Source of the DNA: Hymenobacter sp. YC55
Lineage (GTDB): Bacteria; Bacteroidota; Bacteroidia; Cytophagales; Hymenobacteraceae
Assembly: GCF_029433095.1 (NCBI RefSeq)
Contig: NZ_JARNTX010000004.1
Coordinates: 62,001 to 126,000 of the forward strand
Reading direction: 5' to 3'
DNA length: 64,000 bases
This document shows positions 1,327-57,969 of the stretch, one piece after another. Numbering within the stretch: the first letter of the stretch is position 1; every line of letters starts with the position of its first letter. The notes beneath the pieces are model-generated. The model had not been told where the DNA came from, did not search any database, and saw only the letters and a program-made list of their open reading frames with translations. The position numbers were made by a program, and so were the translations under genes.

Positions 1327-3066
1327 ATGACAAATAATGCTCGAATAATTCGAATCGGAGTACTTTATCAGGGGGGCTACCTCCGCTCTTGGGAAAGCCA
1401 AGCGCTCCGCGCTATCTCGCTACTGGCCAATACTTCGTTGGAAGTGTTGATTGAAGTAGACACAAGGAATGGTAAAGCAGTGCAGCCTGCACAAGCTGGA
1501 AGCCTACTATGGCAACGCTACCTGAAGTGGTTTTACAAGCCCTCGGCTCTTCTGCAAACCACTACCACCCGCGACTTTGCTCTTGACATACCAAAGCTTA
1601 CGTGTACTCCTCGGCAGCAAGGTGCTGGCGTTGAACTCGATGAGGCAATTGTTGCTGCTATAAGCGGTTATCAGCTCGACTTTATCTTAAGCTTTGCCGA
1701 CCAAACTGTTAACACGTTGGTTGCCAAGCTAACTAAATCAAATATTTGGTATTTTCAGTTTGGAGCACAACGCAACAAACCAAACTTACCGATTGGTTTT
1801 TGGGAGACGTGTACCCACAAGATCGTCACACCCGCAATGCTTTGTCAATTAGCAAGTTCGGGAGCAACCACGGTGTTGAAGCAGGGGTACTTTCGGACGT
1901 TGCTGCATAGCCTGTCACTTAGTGCAACTACCATTTACACGGAATGCGCCAATTGGCCTACTGACATCTGCCGCCAACTGCTTGCTGGCGGTGAGTTGCC
2001 CAGCTTGGCGCTTCAGCCGCTGCCTGCCGCTAGTGAAGTTCAATTACCATCCAACGCGGCTACATTACGCTTTTTGGGGGGCTTAGTGAGGCAGAAGATT
2101 CAGCAGCTATACAACATTTACCTGCAGGCCGATCAATGGAACATGGGGGTAGTGAATAGGCCTATTCAAGACTTCTTACGCCCAGAAACCCTACGTGGGG
2201 TAAGGGTAGATGCGCCTGAGCTTCCTAGCCGCAACGTGTTCTATGCGGACTGTTTCGCACGGCAGGAGGAGTCCGGAACGGTGGTGTACTTTGAAGCATA
2301 CGACTACCGGGTGCGACGCGGCAATATTTCGCGCCTCAGCTACCCATGGCAGCAAGGCAGCACACCCGAGCTGGTCTTAGACTTCCCATTTCACTTATCG
2401 TATCCATTTCTTTTCGGGCCCTATTGTATTCCCGAAGGGTGGGTTAGCAACAGCATCCGCATGTATGACCTGCGGAAGCCAGTCACGGATCCTGCTGCGG
2501 GCCAGCTATTGCTGGAGGCACCTGCCGTTGATTCTACCTTGCTGGAGTATGATGGGCGTTATTGGCTCTTCTATACCCGCATGGACCGTGACCCCATGCT
2601 CAATCTGTACATCTCGTACGCTGTCAGCTTAGAAGGGCCCTGGCACGAGCATCCACAAAATCCAGTTAAGACGGATATTCGAAGTGCGCGTCCTGCCGGG
2701 CCATTTTTCGAGGAAGCCGGCAAACTCTACCGTCCTGCCCAGGACTGTGCCAAGGACTATGGATACGGCATCACCATCAATGAGGTGCTCACGCTCACGA
2801 CAACCGAATACGCCGAACGAGAAGCAGCCGCACTAACCTCTCCGCATCCCGATTATCCAGATGGCTTGCACACTATTACCGCAGTTGATGCAACCCACAC
2901 CATAATCGATTTTAAGCGCCGCCGCTTTATTCCTTTCGCCTCGCTATTAGCTATCTGGATATGGGTATCAGGCTTTATCCAGTTCAAAAAGAAACCGCGT
3001 AAAACGGAAGTTGCTGCGCCGAGCCCAGCAGTACCAGAAGCAAAAACTGCCAACTCGGTTCATTGA
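1327..3066 (+). CDS. Formyltransferase-like / GINT1_N beta-propeller-type protein
   Basis: A 579-residue protein. The N-terminal 230 residues look like the Rossmann part of formyltransferase-like proteins (start IRIGVLYQGGYLRSW). Residues about 250-520 match the beta-propeller-like domain named after plant glucosamine inositolphosphorylceramide transferase 1 (GINT1_N), with the signature HLSYPFLFGPYCIPE followed by DSTLLEYDGRYWLFYT and a YGYGI motif. Residues about 535-553 form one hydrophobic segment followed by KKKPRK, consistent with a C-terminal anchor. Bacterial members usually lie in polysaccharide clusters, as here, next to a GT2. The enzymatic role is not established; transfer or modification of a sugar on a lipid or glycan is inference. 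Confidence 0.7.
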   Translation: MTNNARIIRIGVLYQGGYLRSWESQALRAISLLANTSLEVLIEVDTRNGKAVQPAQAGSLLWQRYLKWFYKPSALLQTTTTRDFALDIPKLTCTPRQQGAGVELDEAIVAAISGYQLDFILSFADQTVNTLVAKLTKSNIWYFQFGAQRNKPNLPIGFWETCTHKIVTPAMLCQLASSGATTVLKQGYFRTLLHSLSLSATTIYTECANWPTDICRQLLAGGELPSLALQPLPAASEVQLPSNAATLRFLGGLVRQKIQQLYNIYLQADQWNMGVVNRPIQDFLRPETLRGVRVDAPELPSRNVFYADCFARQEESGTVVYFEAYDYRVRRGNISRLSYPWQQGSTPELVLDFPFHLSYPFLFGPYCIPEGWVSNSIRMYDLRKPVTDPAAGQLLLEAPAVDSTLLEYDGRYWLFYTRMDRDPMLNLYISYAVSLEGPWHEHPQNPVKTDIRSARPAGPFFEEAGKLYRPAQDCAKDYGYGITINEVLTLTTTEYAEREAAALTSPHPDYPDGLHTITAVDATHTIIDFKRRRFIPFASLLAIWIWVSGFIQFKKKPRKTEVAAPSPAVPEAKTANSVH

Positions 3067-3090
3067 GGCCACAATAGCTTCAACGCTCAC

Positions 3091-3843
3091 CTAAGCTACT
3101 TTTCTGCCCGTAATGATATAGTGCTTGCAGAAGAGGTGCTTGAAAGGATACATCTGTTGTTTTAGGCTCTCAGGCAAGTTTGTCTTTAAGCGCGACAGGT
3201 AAAGCTGTTGTATGGGATACACCAATAGAGCAGCTGGCAAATACACTAAGTCTTTGGAATAAGAAGAGGTGTATTCGATTTTCTCGATTTCTATCCCGTG
3301 CTTGCGCAAAAGCCGGCAAAGCTCTTGAACAGGTACATTCTCGGTTAATTCCTCGGTGTCATCATAGATCGGCCGGAACATCCGATATCTCCCAAAAAGG
3401 AGATAGGCTATCCGGTCAATTATGGTAGCTGAATTATCATTCGTGACGATAAAGGTTCCACCGGGTTTTAAACGAGAAGCACAGTTCCTGATAAATGATA
3501 ACGTATTACTAAACATCATTACGCCGCTAATAGAAGTAATGAGGTCGAATTGCTGTTGATCAGGCAATGTGAAATCCTTTGTCAAATCCATTTCAACGAA
3601 GGATACATCTTGGCTCTTATTTGAGGGAGGGAATAGGTCCGCGCCCCATAGTTTTGCGGCCGGAAATAGCTTCCGCAAATACGTTAAGAACTCTAAGTTG
3701 CCACACGGCAAATCCAAGGCCTGAATAGTAGCACCTTTAGGAAATCTATTGGCAAGATTAGCCAGGATAGTATAGTTAACGTCCTTCTGCGTTTGACCTC
3801 GCTCTACAACAAAGTCAGCAGGAAGAGTGGCTTTAGAAGACAT
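3091..3843 (-). CDS. Class I SAM-dependent methyltransferase
   Basis: A 250-residue soluble methyltransferase. Motif I is LDLPCGNLEFL near residues 43-53, the acidic end of beta-2 is in LWGADLFPP, and motif IV is close to FDLITSISGVMMF. A late motif (LKPGGTFIVTNDN) is typical of small-molecule methyltransferases. It follows the WcaI-like gene on the same strand, 128 bases downstream and after a hairpin, so it is probably transcribed separately. It ends 25 bases from the convergent gene at 3066. Methylation of a polysaccharide sugar or lipid is a guess from context; the substrate is not visible. Confidence 0.85.
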   Translation of the reverse strand: MSSKATLPADFVVERGQTQKDVNYTILANLANRFPKGATIQALDLPCGNLEFLTYLRKLFPAAKLWGADLFPPSNKSQDVSFVEMDLTKDFTLPDQQQFDLITSISGVMMFSNTLSFIRNCASRLKPGGTFIVTNDNSATIIDRIAYLLFGRYRMFRPIYDDTEELTENVPVQELCRLLRKHGIEIEKIEYTSSYSKDLVYLPAALLVYPIQQLYLSRLKTNLPESLKQQMYPFKHLFCKHYIITGRKVA

Positions 3844-54989: not shown

Positions 54990-55102
54990 GAGGCAGCAAG
55001 GCAGCCATGACCAATAGGGCAGACGGTAGCAGAAATCACAAGCAATAAGCAGCTACACAGTACCGTTGCTTGGTTGTTCGTTCACTATATACTGTTCTCG
55101 TT

Positions 55103-55615
55103 ATGGCTGAAATTCAATCTTCCGCTCCCGCTGGCCGTGGCACCAAGCCTCGCCGCAAGAAAATGTCGACCCGCATCGACATGACCCCCATGGTCGACCT
55201 GGCCTTCCTACTGCTCACCTTCTTTATTCTGACGGCTTCGTTCAATAAGCCAACGGTTATGGAACTGGCTATGCCTGATAAGAAGGGTCCTTCGTCCGAT
55301 ATATCTGCAAGTCGGGCGCTCACGCTAATCCTAGGCAAGAACGGCCAGGTGCATTACTTCTTCGGCTTGAATACCAAAGCCGAGCCCGCCACACTACACA
55401 CCACTACGTTCAGCTCGGAAGGGCTGCGGCGGGTGCTACTTGAGCGGCAACGGCAACTGCCAGCTCCCACGGTACTTATCAAGGCTGGTCAGGATGCTAA
55501 ATACCGCGACTTAGTAGACGTGCTAGATGAAATGACCATTACCGATCAGCAGAAATACGCGTTGGTTGACTTGTCTGCTGACGACAAGAAGCTGCTGGAA
55601 AAGAACTCGTTATAA
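55103..55615 (+). CDS. exbD: ExbD/TolR-type biopolymer transport protein (solitary)
   Basis: A 170-residue membrane protein with one N-terminal helix (TPMVDLAFLLLTFFILTASF) preceded by a basic tail, and a periplasmic domain. The TxMVDxxFxLLxFF motif contains the proton-path aspartate of ExbD/TolR. The C-terminal half has the ExbD fold (RQLPAPTVLIKAGQDAKYRDL). ExbD normally works with ExbB and TonB, which are not next to it here. The ATG at 55103 is the likely start (MAEIQSS). Confidence 0.9.
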   Translation: MAEIQSSAPAGRGTKPRRKKMSTRIDMTPMVDLAFLLLTFFILTASFNKPTVMELAMPDKKGPSSDISASRALTLILGKNGQVHYFFGLNTKAEPATLHTTTFSSEGLRRVLLERQRQLPAPTVLIKAGQDAKYRDLVDVLDEMTITDQQKYALVDLSADDKKLLEKNSL

Positions 55616-55621
55616 GTTGGA

Positions 55622-55662
55622 GTAAGCTAGCTGCTTGCTGCATCAGCGAGTAGCTAGCTTAC
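55622..55662 (+). terminator. exbD: 19-bp strand-specific hairpin after exbD
   Basis: Positions 55622-55640 pair with 55644-55662 around CAT, with two G-T wobbles. In plus-strand RNA both are G-U pairs, while minus-strand RNA would have A-C mismatches, so the structure favours plus-strand transcripts. It overlaps the last codons of the convergent gene. Confidence 0.55.
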
Positions 55663-56131
55663 CGACTTGGTAGCTGCTATAGCCGAAAGTAGCCACTGCC
55701 AAGAGCTGCAAGACATACGCGCCGTTTAACAGTACTTGGTAAAAATTAACAGGTGATGCAGGAGGTATTTCGGTAGCGTTTAGAGGTGGATAAATTCTCC
55801 AGCCCCCCATACTGCCTACAACTAGCGGCGAAAGCAAGCAGGTAACTATGCCAATCAACAGGGCACTAAGTGCTGCAAGCAGTAGGTAAGTCTGAAGAGG
55901 ATACCGACTTCGCAATAACATAAAGAAGCCGACCACCAAGAGGAGAAGTAGAAATAATACTCCCACAAACACTACAGGCTGCACAACGAAATAGGTGTTG
56001 TGCATCTGGATATCAAGCTGTGGCTGCAACAGCGCGCCGAATCCGAGAAAGACACCTGCCAGCAAAAAAGCTAACCCCAACGACACCAATAACCAACGCA
56101 GCACTAGCTGCAACGTTTTCGAGGATATCAC
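55643..56131 (-). CDS. Small membrane protein with two cytochrome-oxidase-subunit-I-like motifs
   Basis: A 162-residue membrane protein with about four hydrophobic segments. A GTG start at 56131 is chosen because it overlaps the upstream stop (GTGA). It carries LDIQMHNTYFVV (residues 39-50), which matches the D-x-LHDTY-FVV block of cytochrome oxidase subunit I, and GWRIYPPLNA (110-119), which matches the GWT.YPPL block of the same protein, but in reversed order. The heme and copper histidine set is absent, so it is not an oxidase. I know of no function. It is the last gene of a three-gene operon. Confidence 0.75.
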   Translation of the reverse strand: MISSKTLQLVLRWLLVSLGLAFLLAGVFLGFGALLQPQLDIQMHNTYFVVQPVVFVGVLFLLLLLVVGFFMLLRSRYPLQTYLLLAALSALLIGIVTCLLSPLVVGSMGGWRIYPPLNATEIPPASPVNFYQVLLNGAYVLQLLAVATFGYSSYQVGKLATR

Positions 56132-56751
56132 GGTGTGGTTGGTGAGGTAGAAGATGTCGGCAGCACATCCACTTGCTTGATGCGCGCCTGCCCCCACGGC
56201 GCAATACTGACTTGCACTCGCAATGATTGTTTTGGCTTGAGCTTACGGCCAGTGTCTTCGGGTACATAATATCGTTCGAAGCCGTAGCGGAGGCGTATGC
56301 TGCGCCGAAAAGCATCGGCCACCCATCCCCGGAGCACTACTTGGTTGGCCGGCACGGTAGGCTCCTGCGGATACACGCCCACCGCCTCGTAGTTGCCCTG
56401 GCGGGACTCTAGCACCACGTACACGGCCTGCTTGCGGCGCGGCCTACCGGGGCCCCGCCACAAGTGACCGGGAATTTGGCTGATGCTATAATTTAGGTTG
56501 AGATAGTCGCCGTAGAGTAGGTCGCGCGGGTCTACGGGGGTGCTACGAAGCGTGATGGTCCGGCCAAAAGCAGCGGTAGCATAGCCAGCGGCGGCTACTG
56601 CTAACACAAACAGCACCTGCGCTACCACCAGCCACCGCACACCCTGCCGCCGGCGCGACTCTTGCACCTGCGGCAACGGCGCGGGTGTAGGCAGCGTGGT
56701 AGCAGCCGGCGTAGCGGCATTCGAAGAAGAAAGTTCGGGAGAAGTCGGCAT
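56128..56751 (-). CDS. GDYXXLXY-domain protein
   Basis: A 207-residue protein with one membrane helix (about 38-58, WLVVAQVLFVLAVAAAGYA) and a periplasmic GDYXXLXY domain, named after YGDYLNLNYSISQIP, which occurs here near residues 84-98. This domain typically follows a DUF2157 protein, as it does here with 3 bases between the stop and this start. The N-terminal 35 residues are low-complexity (Ala/Thr/Pro). The function of the pair is unknown. Confidence 0.88.
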   Translation of the reverse strand: MPTSPELSSSNAATPAATTLPTPAPLPQVQESRRRQGVRWLVVAQVLFVLAVAAAGYATAAFGRTITLRSTPVDPRDLLYGDYLNLNYSISQIPGHLWRGPGRPRRKQAVYVVLESRQGNYEAVGVYPQEPTVPANQVVLRGWVADAFRRSIRLRYGFERYYVPEDTGRKLKPKQSLRVQVSIAPWGQARIKQVDVLPTSSTSPTTP

Positions 56752-56754
56752 GGG

Positions 56755-57969
56755 TTAGTCGGGGGCTTTCACCGAAAATGTTTGGGTGGCGCGGCGCCGC
56801 AAAACCCACCATAAGCCGAGCAGCAGCAACCCACCCAGCAAGAAAAACAGCGACTTATCCATGAAGCCCCACGTGAGCTTGAAGTAAGCAACTGCCGTGG
56901 TCAGGATAAACAGGGCGGTGCCGAGCGTTACGCGGTCCGGGTTGTGCTCGTGATGGGCGCGGGCTAGCACCGACCCGGAATATGCGTACAGCACTACCAG
57001 CGTAGCCACGGCCAGCGGCAGCCCGCCCGGCAAATAGAAGCCCGGCAACAGCAGCAGCCAGTCGGTGGCGCTGCTTAGGCGGCCTCGGGCTCGTTTGCCC
57101 CATAGCGACAAAGCCAGTACCACGCCAAGCGCCGCCAGATATGCTAGCAACGGTGGCCGCAATTCTCCAGCGTAGGTATCCGTTTCGCCGAACAAAGCCA
57201 GCCCCAGCGTGAACAGGAAAGCAGCCACTAGCGGCGGCCCTTGCAAGGCGCGGCCGGCGGGCCGGTCGGTTTGCCAATCACCTGCCGCGTAAATCAACAT
57301 GGCTGGTACAAAGAACCACGTGATTTTGATATGCAAGTGGTTTATCAGCAAGGCAGCCTGCCACAGTAGGCCCGTTGCTAGTACGCCACCTAGCAGCGAA
57401 TCGGGGCGGCGCCACCAGTAGTAGCCTAGTCCGCCCGCGGTTAGCGCCGCCGTGAAATAGCTGAACACGCCTAGCTGCCCGGTGTTGTAGCCCTGCACAA
57501 TGCCTCCGATAACAACGGTAAGCAGAAATACAAACTGGCTACGGTACAGCCACGTCAGCAGGATGCCGACTACCGCCCAAGCCAGCAACCCCGTAAGGTC
57601 GTAGCCGATGAGCTGGTACATCTGGCTGGTGAGCACAATGCTGGCCCCGAACAGAATCAGCCCCAAGCCTACCAGCCCCATACCCAGCGCCTCGTACTGG
57701 CGGCGCAGAAAGTATTCGGCGGCGGCGTAAGCCCCCGTCAGACTGCCGAGCAGCAGCCCTAGCCGCATGAGTTCTGGCATCTCCTGCCAGTTGGCGGCCA
57801 CTACGCTCAATGCACTCAGCCCGATAAGCAAACTGCCTAATAGTGGCAGCAACCCTATAGCACGTTGTTCGGCCGGGTAGAGAGCCAGCAGTTGCGCGTG
57901 CTGCTCCGGGCTGATAATGCCTTTGCGCACCCATTCCACCCCGTCCGTTTCTAATAATTTACGACTCAT
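56755..57969 (-). CDS. DUF2157 polytopic membrane protein
   Basis: A 404-residue inner-membrane protein with about ten hydrophobic segments and a short N-terminal cytoplasmic helix domain (LLETDGVEWVRKGIISPEQ), the DUF2157 signature. Segments such as LPLLGSLLIGLSALSVVAANW and AEYFLRRQYEALGMGLVGLG are typical. It is the first gene of an operon with the GDYXXLXY protein and the COX1-motif protein. DUF2157 function is unknown. A C-terminal basic tail (RRRATQTFSVKAPD) follows the last helix. Confidence 0.88.
   Translation of the reverse strand: MSRKLLETDGVEWVRKGIISPEQHAQLLALYPAEQRAIGLLPLLGSLLIGLSALSVVAANWQEMPELMRLGLLLGSLTGAYAAAEYFLRRQYEALGMGLVGLGLILFGASIVLTSQMYQLIGYDLTGLLAWAVVGILLTWLYRSQFVFLLTVVIGGIVQGYNTGQLGVFSYFTAALTAGGLGYYWWRRPDSLLGGVLATGLLWQAALLINHLHIKITWFFVPAMLIYAAGDWQTDRPAGRALQGPPLVAAFLFTLGLALFGETDTYAGELRPPLLAYLAALGVVLALSLWGKRARGRLSSATDWLLLLPGFYLPGGLPLAVATLVVLYAYSGSVLARAHHEHNPDRVTLGTALFILTTAVAYFKLTWGFMDKSLFFLLGGLLLLGLWWVLRRRATQTFSVKAPD

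Follow-up and report, generated by a model that had tools for sequence, protein, structure and literature searches.

Cytochrome oxidase subunit I (COX1; PF00115, TIGR02891 CtaD/CoxA) is a membrane protein of 12 helices, and Sco, CtaG/Cox11, and Surf1 are assembly factors of the oxidase. In COX1, the outer loops III-IV and IX-X border the same outer water/Mg cluster, which lies across from subunit II (COX2). PMC12901375 assigns to this cluster, in the bovine enzyme, residues T127, Y129, P130, L132, D364, H368, and D369 of subunit I together with E198 of subunit II; in the Mg-free Thermus ba3 enzyme, it lists N in place of D369 and Q in place of E198. Two further families are relevant here, DUF2157 (PF09925) and GDYXXLXY (PF14345). 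According to PMC11237479, the helices of DUF2157 are unified with LiaF sensor helices, and PMC5915739 reports that a GDYXXLXY protein of Fusobacterium co-purified with FtsX and EnvC.

Here we describe a small protein of Hymenobacter that resembles COX1 in its IX-X and III-IV outer loops, in the lineage-specific letters of these loops, and in their predicted outside location. Unlike COX1, it has four predicted helices instead of 12, it carries the two segments in reversed order, it lacks heme ligands after the motif, and it scores under the cutoffs of the models that match. We found no description of such mini-proteins in the open-access PMC literature.

A small membrane protein with two COX1 loop motifs

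The window, a stretch of 64,000 nucleotides from Hymenobacter sp. YC55, contains at 55643..56131 on the minus strand a gene with a GTG start that encodes 162 residues, with four membrane helices according to hydropathy and the AF2 model. The frame that holds both motifs is real and runs from 56131 down to 55643, and the plus strand across it is interrupted by 12 stops. It stays open further upstream, up to a GTG at 56197 (55643-56197, minus, 184 residues); the start at 56131 was preferred because of a GTGA overlap with the preceding gene and because of the length of the relatives. That preceding gene (56128..56751, minus) encodes a GDYXXLXY protein (118.9 bits, E 2.1e-34) and is itself preceded by the gene of a DUF2157 membrane protein (56755..57969, minus; 123.3 bits, E 8.2e-36), the first in the gene run. 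Both proteins exceed their Pfam cutoffs, and the identities and the overlap given in the preliminary description are correct. On the other side, an ExbD/TolR protein gene (55070..55615, plus) is the convergent neighbor. No cox gene was present among the window neighbors that we scanned.

Residues 39 to 50 of the small protein (LDIQMHNTYFVV; 55982..56017, minus) are the counterpart of COX1 loop IX-X, and residues 110 to 117 (GWRIYPPL; 55781..55804, minus) are that of loop III-IV. In the COX1 of the host, GWTIYPPL comes first and LDIQMHNTYFVV follows about 250 residues on, whereas the small protein has the opposite order, as had been noticed from the sequence alone. After the LDIQMHNTYFVV motif, COX1 has heme-ligand histidines (VVAHFH), which the small protein lacks, as it reads VVQPVV there; some relatives retain one or two of them (for example, AHLH in L136). 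The first motif is identical to that of the host COX1 in 12 of 12 residues and in 29 of 36 bases. Recent gene conversion of the motif was ruled out because the 7 base differences within these 36 bases are all silent.

The AF2 model, which is of low confidence (pLDDT 66.5, pTM 0.45), has helices at residues 4 to 29, 52 to 74, 78 to 108, and 130 to 161, with both motifs in intervening loops. With this weak model, Foldseek returned nothing at an E value of ≤0.001, VIA-align compared 26 chains, none of which was an oxidase, and no structural match of the motif loops to COX1 was found. Among the 61 of 79 collected small proteins with four predicted helices, the mean number of K and R residues was 2.26 in the N terminus, 2.64 in the middle loop, and 3.41 in the C terminus, compared to 0.84 and 1.61 in the two motif loops. 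Because K and R are scarce there, both motif loops are predicted to lie outside. Judged by its sequence, the small protein appears to have kept the outer (P-side) loops D-I-Q/N-x-H-D/N-T-Y (IX-X) and Y-P-P-L (III-IV) and to have lost the heme and CuB pockets.

Kinship with COX1 is found at the level of the family

Taken alone, the window protein scored 16.4 bits (E 0.0044) against Pfam COX1, under the gathering score of 34.8 bits. No COX1 model was among its NCBIfam matches, and against PDB sequences its top match was an unrelated virion protein (E 0.24), followed by COX1 (E 1.1). As the single sequence is not significant, the claim of COX1 kinship was based on the family. Pfam scanning of eight members, the window protein included, gave COX1 as the best match in five, all under the cutoff. 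Four of the relatives scored 28.7 to 33.8 bits, three others had no Pfam match at an E value of ≤0.1, and no NCBIfam model matched any scanned member above its cutoff.

Searched against all PDB sequences, a family profile returned COX1 only (25 of 25 matches at an E value of ≤0.001), and so did a second family profile (26 of 26 at an E value of ≤0.1). The reversed-alignment controls (hhalign against COX1) gave a best E value of 0.15. The best PDB stretch for the family profile was yeast COX1 58-140, which covers helices II-III running into YPPL. The Pfam COX1 search proposed in the preliminary description fell short for the window protein, and the suggestion that both segments are COX1-like and the protein oxidase derived is borne out by profiles matching COX1 alone in the PDB and by empty reversed controls. 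For the IX-X hairpin, kinship with the COX1 sequence is found at the family level; for III-IV, GW-x-x-YPPL is present, and the match is one of the loop, not of the flanking helices.

Chance or compositional resemblance was ruled out by the reversed-alignment controls together with PDB profile searches returning COX1 alone at the thresholds used. The broader proposal, that the resemblance is accidental or the gene a decaying pseudogene, could point to the single sequence being not significant against Pfam COX1 or the PDB, but the same profile searches and controls, and dN/dS values well below 1 (see below), make it extremely improbable. We consider the family of small proteins very probably akin to COX1. 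The small protein falls outside the definition of COX1 by score, helix number, and heme ligands, and yet it is derived from COX1.

Spread of the family and origin of the second loop

With the window sequence as a single query, relatives were found in 37 of 200 Hymenobacteraceae genomes. Profile searches extended the family to the Flavobacteriaceae and other families, over the Bacteroidia. The A2 profile, built from the 12 small proteins first collected outside the Hymenobacteraceae and covering both branches, also matches true COX1 genes (E down to 2.7e-19); of 149 genomes searched from the class, 137 gave a match, either to COX1 or to a small protein. Besides the 61 small proteins with four predicted helices, the 79 collected include 14 with three and 4 with two. 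We assign the window protein to a putative family of heme-free mini-paralogs of COX1 in the Bacteroidota. Other short COX1-like frames were also observed, namely, paired adjacent frames of about 150 residues in genomes G341, G260, G287, and G290; every one of these frames corresponds to the initial third of the COX1 profile.

The family falls into two branches, and the window protein sits in the second, YPPL branch, in which the YPPL loop is present in many rows. In the first, non-YPPL branch, the protein follows COX1 helices IX-XII collinearly along its entire length (a profile of 9 chosen rows of 53 aligned over 125 columns, hhalign E 5.9e-20). A YPPL-type loop is kept in 26 of the 79 small proteins, so that homologs with both motifs do exist. 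Compared with COX1 by hhalign, these 26 rows gave two separate matches, one to IX-X (E 2.5e-10) and one to the III-IV region (E 1.9e-8); the match to XI-XII was weak (E 0.16, or 0.03 for the XII region in another comparison). A longer stretch of the III-IV loop is seen in L322 and L334 (TIYPPLSALPEAI versus TVYPPLSALPQAI in the host) and in L129 (GGWTLYPPLSAQPQ versus AGWTIYPPLSALPQ). At L129, a 144-residue gene (L129:5451-5885, plus) that overlaps the small gene resembles, on visual inspection, a second copy that has diverged strongly (GWHTTVLPPHFF, AQIFFMLQ); it matched nothing in Pfam or NCBIfam.

When the YPPL loop was masked, the flanking helices matched neither III-IV nor XI-XII of COX1. 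A derivation of helices 3 and 4 from III-IV as a whole is hence unsupported, and because the III-IV match is lost with the loop, either a III-IV hairpin or the loop by itself would have been joined to the IX-X hairpin. The swapped order proposed earlier stands for the motifs, IX-X before III-IV; what was moved may be a whole hairpin or a loop alone. Helix pairs III-IV and XI-XII of COX1 are pseudo-threefold equivalents, so such an exchange would be easy to accommodate. On the family tree, the YPPL-type loop requires 13 gains or losses, at least 4 of them on supported branches, and it is thus not steadily kept.

These data bear on another history, in which all members descend linearly from COX1 IX-XII, the XI-XII loop gained GW-x-x-YPPL either in place or by grafting, and only the IX-X hairpin is functional. 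The collinearity of the non-YPPL branch is what one would expect under it, as are the weak match to the XII region given by the second half of YPPL-branch proteins and the short members with the IX-X hairpin alone that also follow GDYXXLXY (L016 and L028). This history does not account for a III-IV match that extends over YPPLSALPEAI in L322, L325, and L334, which is not given by chance, nor for a best PDB stretch that covers helices II-III into YPPL. We judge it rather unlikely, if worth keeping in mind.

The small proteins form a separate clade and are under constraint

In a tree computed with the motifs masked (33 of 70 small-protein and 17 of 34 COX1 rows chosen, with L005, L014, and L194 then dropped), the remaining 30 small proteins were separated from the 17 COX1 proteins by a branch supported at 99/98. 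Grouping the Hymenobacteraceae small proteins with their COX1 as one clade was rejected (p-AU 0.0037, motifs masked). This value rules out that the Hymenobacter small protein branched off recently from the COX1 of its host, but it should be read with caution since the tree program flagged long branches in both trees. In nine close pairs, dN/dS ranged from 0.13 to 0.36, and a tenth pair was saturated. Because these values are well below 1, and the family is spread over the Bacteroidia, we rejected the view of the preliminary description that the gene may be a relict.

Association with GDYXXLXY genes was seen in the Hymenobacteraceae

We examined 20 of the 37 Hymenobacteraceae matches with 5-kb flanks, mostly long forms, with ten short forms left out. 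The GDYXXLXY gene lies near the small gene in 19 of these 20 loci. The DUF2157/GDYXXLXY pair, which shares a gene run with the small gene in the window, adjoins it in 12 of the 20, GDYXXLXY being directly before it; in 7, an opposite-strand ExbD gene lies between GDYXXLXY and the small gene. At the twentieth locus (L161), the contig stops 79 bases past the gene, on the side where GDYXXLXY would lie. An ExbD relative adjoins the small gene in 19 of the 20 loci. Among the first 30 loci (L001-L030, 1.5-kb flanks), GDYXXLXY was present in 19, always on the same strand; at L009, it is located farther out (seen in L149). The 1.5-kb flanks of L013, L017-L021, L023-L025, and L027, which are short forms or cut, contain no GDYXXLXY, and for four of those ten loci none was found in 10-kb loci either (L032 and L034-L036). 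The members at L013, L017, L018, L020, L021, L023-L025, and L027 are short Hymenobacteraceae forms with the HNTYF loop only.

Outside the Hymenobacteraceae, phmmer found no GDYXXLXY or DUF2157 relative at 13 loci of other families. Twelve of these hold a family member, and the 20 neighbors scanned there are unrelated to each other and include no cox gene. The remaining one, L141 (genome G272), holds a different COX1-like protein of 153 residues without the HDTY motif (L141:4918-5379, plus; LVSAHTHIILVG), which matches the COX1 profile at 302 to 414 (E 1.8e-10). Since phmmer detected neither relative at the 13 loci, the gene run with DUF2157 and GDYXXLXY appears to be a local arrangement, and the earlier idea of a new job in the DUF2157 system has the linkage within the Hymenobacteraceae on its side (19 of 20) and can hold at most locally.

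The same observations weigh on the proposal that the small protein works in an envelope system with DUF2157 and GDYXXLXY, is unconnected with the oxidase, and reuses the COX1 loops as a fold. Apart from GDYXXLXY and ExbD lying nearby in the Hymenobacteraceae, it would fit with the unification of DUF2157 with LiaF sensor helices made in PMC11237479. Still, no such neighbor was detected by phmmer in the other families, and a reused fold need not match the letters of the host COX1, as described below, which leaves this proposal improbable. GDYXXLXY itself had no match among PDB sequences at an E value of ≤1.

Loop letters follow the COX1 of the host

In Hymenobacter, the genes of the host's own COX2 and COX1 (L067:257-1318 and 1333-3210) encode N and Q where the Mg site normally has D and E (COX1 HNTY, COX2 CNQIC), an N/Q pair like that of Thermus ba3. 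The Flavobacteriaceae that were read combine HDTY in COX1 with CNKIC in COX2, with K at the E position, and several other families combine HDTY with C-T/A-E. As some host COX1 states in our switch analysis had been assigned by taxonomic family, letter matching was restricted to the 48 genomes in which the small protein, COX1, and COX2 had all been read. At position 366 (Q or N; numbering counted from D364 and H368), the small protein agrees with the host COX1 in 48 of 48 genomes. At position 369 (D or N), it does so in 45 of 48, and these matches include the D-to-N change, accompanied in Hymenobacter by E to Q in subunit II. The three mismatches are all Flavobacteriaceae small proteins (N, G, and E). 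Residue 198 of COX2 was read as K in 23 of the 48 genomes, as Q in 15, and as E in 10. In G064, a relative within the same family, the small protein and the two COX1 copies carry D; the one COX2 read there carries E and belongs to the second cox locus of this genome. G587 combines Q in COX2 with D in its other two proteins. The motif histidine is absent from 8 of the 48 small proteins, making a strict metal role unlikely.

Outside the 48 genomes, the small protein equals COX1 at both positions in G068, G114, G170, G086, G521, and G220, for which COX2 was not included, and in G1081, for which no COX2 was found; the COX1 letters of G1093, which has a small protein, were not read. The second-copy COX1 loci L350-L352 were left out of the comparison. 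Independent switches of letters are few, with two supported pairs per position, which gives no significance, and at position 369 one of the two supported pairs switches without a change in the host; host states in this switch analysis were partly assigned by family.

Letters that track the host are also what a decoy would require, that is, a small protein that copies the exposed face of COX1 and absorbs a toxin, bacteriocin, or phage factor binding there: such a decoy must resemble the host's own COX1 because the attacker binds that face. Decoy genes typically show a patchy spread and varied neighbors, as seen here outside the Hymenobacteraceae, and they may occur in tandem, as at L213. However, most of the scanned neighbors have metabolic or informational functions; one (L139) is a caspase-domain protein, and no known defense set was recognized among them in scans with general protein-family models. 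Additionally, 21 stretches of viral contigs carried the motif pattern and none was a relative by tblastn, and the small protein had no match on plasmids. We know of no attacker of this COX1 face, and we regard a decoy as decidedly improbable.

A possible stand-in for COX1

From the computed kinship, constraint, predicted outside location, and host-matching letters, we infer binding, a partner, and a role for the small protein. It would present the outer loops of COX1 without a redox center, and these loops would bind whichever partner they face in COX1, the simplest candidate being the CuA domain of COX2. That the small protein mimics the COX1 face and contacts a part of the oxidase is, in our view, close to an even call. 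It may stand in for COX1 in holding, maturing, or regulating either free COX2 or the oxidase during assembly; it could, for instance, hold COX2 until COX1 is ready, aid the maturation of COX2, or limit assembly. A role in assembly or regulation is one that we propose tentatively. Similarly, we offer as a conjecture that this permuted, catalytically dead mini-COX1 family rebuilds the water/Mg face as a docking site for subunit II, evolving in step with the contact pair of COX1 and COX2 (D-E with Mg, N-Q, and D-K). The mimicry of the COX1 face has against it the few switches, the mismatches at position 369, the unsteady YPPL loop, the long branches, the absence of cox neighbors, the patchy spread (37 of 200 Hymenobacteraceae genomes with the single query), and G587.

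The small protein would share with Sco, CtaG/Cox11, and Surf1 an action on a maturing oxidase subunit. It differs from these assembly factors in that scans of members against Pfam and NCBIfam brought up none of their families and no cox gene was found among the scanned neighbors. A location beside cox genes is common for assembly factors but not required. If the proposed mimicry is true, COX1, a membrane protein studied as thoroughly as few others, has been shortened and rearranged to give an independent, noncatalytic protein that keeps only the contact face. Such a protein would be a natural model of the interface between COX1 and COX2, reduced to two loops, and its natural variation (D-E, N-Q, and D-K) could be used to probe what the Mg site does. 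The small protein would then also be a candidate for an unknown step of oxidase maturation or control in the Bacteroidota.
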